The notes under the pieces: model-generated | The model's input: the letters and a program-made list of their open reading frames with translations, nothing else | What the model was told of the DNA's origin: nothing | The model's database searches: none | Program-made: the position numbers and the translations under genes | Part shown: in pieces, positions 57,350-57,913 of the stretch | Position numbering within the stretch: the stretch's first letter is position 1 | Layout: each line of letters starts with the position of its first letter | Assembly (NCBI RefSeq): GCF_000190435.1 | Contig: NC_015152.1 | Span: forward strand, 3,044,458 to 3,108,457 | DNA length: 64,000 nucleotides | DNA from: Sphaerochaeta globosa str. Buddy | GTDB taxonomy: Bacteria > Spirochaetota > Spirochaetia > Sphaerochaetales > Sphaerochaetaceae | Reading direction: 5' to 3'

Positions 57350-57775
57350 TTATTTAATCTTTACTTCAATTGCTTTCGGCTTGGCCACTTCCTTCTTTGG
57401 GAGGGTGAGCTTCAGAAGACCATCGGCAAATACTCCTTCAATCTTCTCCTCATCCACATCCTCAGGCAGGGTGAAGGAACGTTCAAAGCACTGGTAGCAG
57501 CGTTCGGTTACGAGCCTTCTCTTTTCCTTCTCTTCCTTCTTGCCCTGCTTGGTGGAACTTAACTTCAGTACGTGTTTCTCGACATGTACCTTCACTTCCT
57601 CCTGCTTGTAGCCTGGAAGCTCAGCTTCCAAGACATAGGCATCCTCATTCTCGATGATGTCTACAGCAGGAAACCTGGAAGGCGTCAGACCCCAGTCGCC
57701 AAGCATGTCATTGAACAACGAGTCAAAAGCTGACACCATCGGGGAATCGTAATCACGTTTTGCTAAGTATTTCAT
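57350..57775 (-). CDS. Small heat-shock protein Hsp20
   Basis: This 141-residue alpha-crystallin-domain chaperone starts MKYLAKRDYDSPMV at 57775, with GGAGGTG upstream. The domain spans about 40-130. It contains ELPGYKQEEVKVHVE, FERSFTLPEDVD, and DGLLKLTLPKKE (usual DGVLxxxxPK), and the C-terminal IxI motif is IEVKIK. It forms oligomers that hold unfolding proteins for DnaK and ClpB. A sigma-54-type promoter precedes it. Confidence 0.93.
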   Translation of the reverse strand: MKYLAKRDYDSPMVSAFDSLFNDMLGDWGLTPSRFPAVDIIENEDAYVLEAELPGYKQEEVKVHVEKHVLKLSSTKQGKKEEKEKRRLVTERCYQCFERSFTLPEDVDEEKIEGVFADGLLKLTLPKKEVAKPKAIEVKIK

Positions 57776-57836
57776 AGTACACCTCCGTGTTCTGTTGTAT
57801 TCTGTTTCTCTCCCTTTTCGGGTTCGATAACACAAT

Positions 57837-57852
57837 TGCAACAAGCGTGCCA
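57837..57852 (-). promoter_or_regulatory. Sigma-54 (-24/-12) promoter of hsp20
   Basis: The minus strand reads TGGCACG-CTTG-TTGCA, exactly the consensus TGGCACG-N4-TTGCW. The start would be near 57826, giving a 50-base leader. An AT-only tract of about 24 bases lies upstream at 57890-57913 and could be a bend site for an integration-host-factor-like protein. Confidence 0.75.
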
Positions 57853-57913
57853 AGTTCCGATAAACACGGTATAATTGCTTTTATCTACTTATATAATATT
57901 ATTTTATATTATT

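Follow-up and report, generated by a model that had tools for sequence, protein, structure and literature searches.

The small heat-shock gene hsp20 of Sphaerochaeta globosa is very probably (we put this at about 0.93) transcribed under the control of sigma-54 (RpoN), judging from the promoter element that precedes it and from the fate of this element among related genomes. Small heat-shock genes are usually regarded as sigma-32, HrcA/CIRCE or RNA-thermometer genes. Three lines of sequence evidence point to sigma-54 instead: an element before hsp20 in nearly all families examined of the class Spirochaetia, the loss of this element alongside rpoN, and the presence in the genome of rpoN together with genes for enhancer-binding proteins (EBPs). 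The genome is a single contig of 3.32 Mb, and the window, which is the whole stretch of 64,000 nucleotides analysed, occupies positions 3044458-3108457; positions elsewhere on the contig carry the prefix C1.

The original prediction described a textbook sigma-54 element upstream of hsp20, and a perfect one is indeed found there. Read on the minus strand as GAAC-TTGGCACG-CTTG-TTGCA-ATTGTG, it agrees with the -24 GG/-12 GC consensus, in the TGGCACG-N4-TTGC(A/T) spacing, at every conserved position. The stretch TGGCACGCTTGTTGCA runs from 57852 to 57837 on the minus strand, with 61 bases between its last base and the A of the hsp20 ATG (57775). It is the sole perfect match to TGGCACGNNNNTTGCW in the window, where 12 other matches each carry two mismatches. 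Base composition predicts 0.015 perfect matches per window, and the chance of a perfect element in a given 150-base upstream stretch is about 2 in 100,000. When up to one mismatch was allowed, the true pattern gave 175 matches in the genome and the reversed-pattern control 66. The genome contains at least six perfect matches. Among those listed, two precede hsp20 genes and one precedes an RpoS-like sigma gene; the others listed include a small-RNA-like unit, a gene of unknown function, and a tripartite-transporter gene that adjoins its own EBP gene.

Features of the hsp20 promoter region and of the candidate activator locus
Feature	Position	Strand	Basis or description
hsp20, small heat-shock protein, 141 aa	57350-57775	-	ORF; Hsp20/alpha-crystallin family
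Ribosome-binding site GGAGGTG	57780-57786	-	sequence; GGAGGT kept in genus leaders
Small hairpin CCC-GAAAA-GGG at the 5' end of the predicted transcript	57812-57822	-	predicted fold
Predicted transcription start, ~12 bases after the -12 GC	57824-57828 (about 57826)	-	predicted from sigma-54 geometry
Sigma-54 promoter element TTGGCACG-N4-TTGCA (-24 GG, -12 GC)	57837-57853	-	perfect match
25-base A/T-only tract	57889-57913	-	sequence; candidate bending or activator-binding region
Histidine kinase gene (HisKA) just upstream of EBP1	C1:1387345-1388538		
EBP1	C1:1388528-1389889		receiver, AAA+ and HTH_8 domains

The ATG start of hsp20 is supported by the ribosome-binding site in front of it. The predicted transcription start directly precedes the CCC-GAAAA-GGG hairpin, and similar hairpins occupy the same starting place in most but not all hsp20 leaders of the genus. 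An RNA thermometer in the leader was considered and rejected, the whole fold being no more stable than shuffled sequences, and HrcA/CIRCE control was ruled out, since no CIRCE inverted repeat with three or fewer mismatches occurs in the window. Farther upstream, about 36 bases from the sigma-54 element, lies the A/T-only tract that had been noted in advance. An AT-rich stretch at a matching distance precedes both the hsp20 promoters and the RpoS-like promoters of the genus and is absent from two psp promoters. The signal shared by these upstream stretches is an ATATAA-type AT-rich excess, many of the compared sequences coming from close relatives; no defined upstream activator site was found in the hsp20 and RpoS-like promoter upstream stretches.

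The presence of rpoN and of EBPs had been set beforehand as a test of the sigma-54 reading. The genome encodes one RpoN (E 4e-49 with PF04552, and above the cut-off of TIGR02395, the rpoN equivalog model) and six clear EBPs with a Sigma54_activat domain; two weaker further matches are ClpB and another large protein. EBP1 and EBP2 are response regulators of receiver-AAA-HTH architecture, and two EBPs are PrpR_N-type regulators beside transporter-like genes. A PspF-like EBP is encoded between two pspA genes (C1:3178064-3180957), each of which has a sigma-54 element with one mismatch. EBP1, EBP2 and PspF were each found in all 10 genus relatives searched. Within the window, hsp20 has no EBP gene as a neighbour. 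EBP6 (C1:20856-22031, minus strand) is EBP-like, with GAFTDG replacing the GAFTGA loop and no HTH domain detected, and in the genus relative G003 the domain matching it is split over two frames; on these features, EBP6 is possibly no longer a sigma-54 activator.

Aligning the hsp20 upstream regions of relatives, as the original prediction had proposed, revealed that the element is kept in the genus and far beyond Sphaerochaeta. hsp20 occurs in every one of 26 genus genomes; the element of its best copy shows 0-2 mismatches and stands 41-66 bases ahead of the ATG. Across Spirochaetia, an element with at most two mismatches was present in 97 of 110 hsp20 upstream regions, a set that covers more than 30 families, takes the better-scoring hsp20 matches and not all copies, and includes several mutually close relatives. 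The controls gave 1/110 for the reversed pattern and 1/110 for the opposite strand. All 97 class elements share T-G-G, A and the G of TTGC without exception, which is partly built in because the sites were chosen by the pattern. In a mostly named genome set, which partly overlaps the 110 loci, the element was found at 35 of 40 spirochaete hsp20 loci versus 5 of 39 from other phyla. The sigma factor itself is nearly as widespread as could be: rpoN was found in 158/159 class genomes. Near-sigma-54 elements were also seen at hsp20 loci in Ignavibacteria, KSB1, Zixibacteria, Verrucomicrobia and Marinimicrobia, most of them with another base replacing the C of TTGC; small heat-shock genes outside the spirochaetes may therefore also be under sigma-54 control.

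A small-genome family, f17, which we infer to be the Borreliaceae (chromosome ~0.9 Mb, a single strong EBP), offered 15 genomes with hsp20 in which the state of rpoN could be set against the element. Ten of the 11 genomes with intact rpoN keep TTGGTA(T/C)-N5-TTGCA at the same place before hsp20; the eleventh, G153, has an intact rpoN yet a degraded element. None of the four genomes with a broken or missing rpoN has a correctly spaced element; Fisher's test gives p = 0.004, without correction for relatedness. Two of these, G042 and G182, have frame disruptions in rpoN; G076 has rpoN without an intact C-terminal part and an hsp20 element whose spacer is one base short; and in G147 no rpoN was found. 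Because G042 and G182 look like sisters, these are probably three independent cases of loss. Loss of the element alongside rpoN is what a working sigma-54 promoter predicts, and these genomes amount to a natural test of promoter function. They nevertheless retain hsp20, so another promoter must serve there. All four also retain an intact Rrp2-like EBP despite their broken or absent rpoN.

The view that the hsp20 element is a functionless chance match can draw weakly on the 0.77 perfect matches expected by chance in the genome, but it is scarcely credible: it is already refuted by an element that keeps its place across the class, by controls that almost never match, and by the disappearance of the element where rpoN is lost. 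Nor does a sigma-70 promoter fit the same site. With TTGGCA taken as a -35, there is no acceptable pair at that place, just as had been foreseen, and this reading was rejected. Two promoters might instead serve hsp20, one of sigma-70 type within the AT tract for basal transcription and the sigma-54 promoter for induction. The persistence of hsp20 in f17 genomes after rpoN loss indicates that other promoters can serve, and a weak sigma-70-like pair, a 9/12 match and the only such pair on the minus strand, does lie at 57920-57893 inside the tract. However, matches of this quality are equally frequent in shuffled sequences, and relatives share the sigma-54 element but not the individual bases of the hsp20 upstream sequence; we regard a second promoter as unlikely.

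A sigma-54 element also precedes the other hsp20 of the genome. The original prediction envisaged one small heat-shock gene on a separate switch, whereas both genome copies carry the element, and the rule holds class-wide: the second hsp20 (C1:2326367-2326789, minus strand) has its own perfect element, TTGGCACGTCTCTTGCA, about 53 bases before the ATG. The sequence is in keeping with the expectation that clpB and dnaK would differ from hsp20. The best match upstream of clpB, which lies in the window, has three mismatches, and the pattern search of the window gave no element with fewer than two mismatches near dnaK (about 9693, minus strand).

In the mechanism that we propose, RNA polymerase with sigma-54 would transcribe hsp20 from the element listed above, waiting at the promoter in a closed, silent complex until an AAA+ EBP used ATP to open it. 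The activator would be EBP1, a kinase-linked response regulator of the Rrp2 type, and a single phosphorelay would switch both hsp20 and the RpoS-like sigma gene, separately from the housekeeping chaperones. The RpoS-like gene (293 aa, C1:1393261-1394139) lies about 3.4 kb downstream of EBP1 and has a perfect sigma-54 element at C1:1393208-1393224, 36 bases upstream. Its best NCBIfam model is RpoS, the match being below the model cut-off. Of the 12 genus genomes with this gene, 11 have a perfect or 1-mismatch element 34-36 bases ahead of the ATG.

Given sigma-54 control, we lean towards EBP1 as the hsp20 activator. It is favoured because the single strong EBP of f17 is closest to EBP1, with which it groups in a tree and shares ~54% identity over its length, against 39% with EBP2; because EBP1 occurs in every genus relative searched and has the element-bearing RpoS-like gene nearby; and because hsp20 and RpoS-like promoters share the AT-rich stretch missing from the two psp promoters. 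The main competing explanation accepts sigma-54 control and assigns activation to PspF, with envelope stress as the signal, or to EBP2, or to several EBPs sharing the promoter. PspF and EBP2 are as constant as EBP1 among the genus relatives, and the PspF gene sits between two pspA genes with near-perfect elements of their own. Against this, f17 keeps the hsp20 element with an Rrp2-like protein as its sole strong EBP, and the psp promoters do not have the upstream stretch common to the other two. We consider activation by these other EBPs less probable, though still a sizeable minority chance. The hsp20 upstream sequence, AT-rich and diverging among relatives, fits the reported enhancer-independent action of Rrp2 in Borrelia; this singles out no activator.

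The arrangement around EBP1 resembles the Rrp2-RpoN-RpoS cascade of Borrelia burgdorferi, in which Rrp2 is the sole EBP (PMC2940757; PMC12655853). Both have RpoN and an NtrC-type response-regulator EBP of the EBP1 clade, and in both an RpoS-like gene is immediately preceded by a sigma-54 element (perfect in Sphaerochaeta globosa). EBP1, like an Rrp2-type EBP with its histidine kinase, directly follows a HisKA kinase gene. The two differ in that Sphaerochaeta hsp20 itself carries an element and in that Sphaerochaeta has six EBPs where Borrelia burgdorferi has one. The phage-shock system of PspF and pspA is alike in placing stress genes under sigma-54, and in Sphaerochaeta PspF is encoded beside the two pspA genes; its promoter surroundings differ from those of hsp20, which has no EBP gene next to it in the window.

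Sigma-54-like promoters have reportedly been proposed for hspA of Stigmatella. A sigma-54 promoter has also been claimed for the small heat-shock gene ibpB of E. coli, where the sigma-54 ChIP signal was background only and the authors suggested misannotation (PMC4591121); the Sphaerochaeta hsp20 element, in contrast, is perfect and conserved class-wide. Passages of a 2025 survey describe predicted sigma-54 elements before chaperone genes, COG0071 included, in Planctomycetota and Bacteroidota, name only COG0533 in the chaperone category for Spirochaetia, and list no small heat-shock genes under sigma-54 for this class (PMC12316311). Unlike that chaperone cluster, the spirochaete arrangement gives hsp20 an element and leaves clpB in the window without one. 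The portions consulted of a Leptospira sigma-factor review and of a Borrelia RpoN transcriptome paper likewise contain no mention of an hsp20-sigma-54 link. Sigma-54 promoters are thus of a known kind, and their class-wide link to hsp20 in Spirochaetia appears to be unreported in the part of the literature that was searched.

A near-universal element before hsp20 would mean that, across a bacterial class, a core chaperone depends on a specific signal and on an activator driven by ATP. This stress protein would be on a separate switch throughout the class, an arrangement kept in nearly all spirochaete families examined, and the much-studied spirochaete RpoN pathway would gain a conserved target outside host adaptation. 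More tentatively, and at somewhat less than even odds, we suggest that Spirochaetia have an ancient stress regulon dependent on sigma-54 and governed by a kinase and its regulator of the Rrp2 type. Its original core target would be hsp20, accompanied by an RpoS-like gene and, in Sphaerochaeta, by redundant small RNAs, and the Borrelia Rrp2-RpoN-RpoS cascade would have put this stress switch to use later.

Small-RNA-like units of this kind lie at C1:3208799-3209430, where three are arranged head to tail. Every unit has a sigma-54 element that departs from the full consensus by 0-2 mismatches. The order within a unit is the sigma-54 element, GAACAGAGCAAC, a T-run, a CTCCT/CCTCC stretch, and a hairpin of the GGTGCCA...TGGCACC type with a T-rich tail. 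An Rfam search of the units returned one sub-threshold, implausible match and no credible one. From their layout, they are probably redundant sigma-54-driven small RNAs, which we take to be comparable to the Qrr RNAs of Vibrio. Tandem units were present in all 13 genus genomes searched, with four copies in one.
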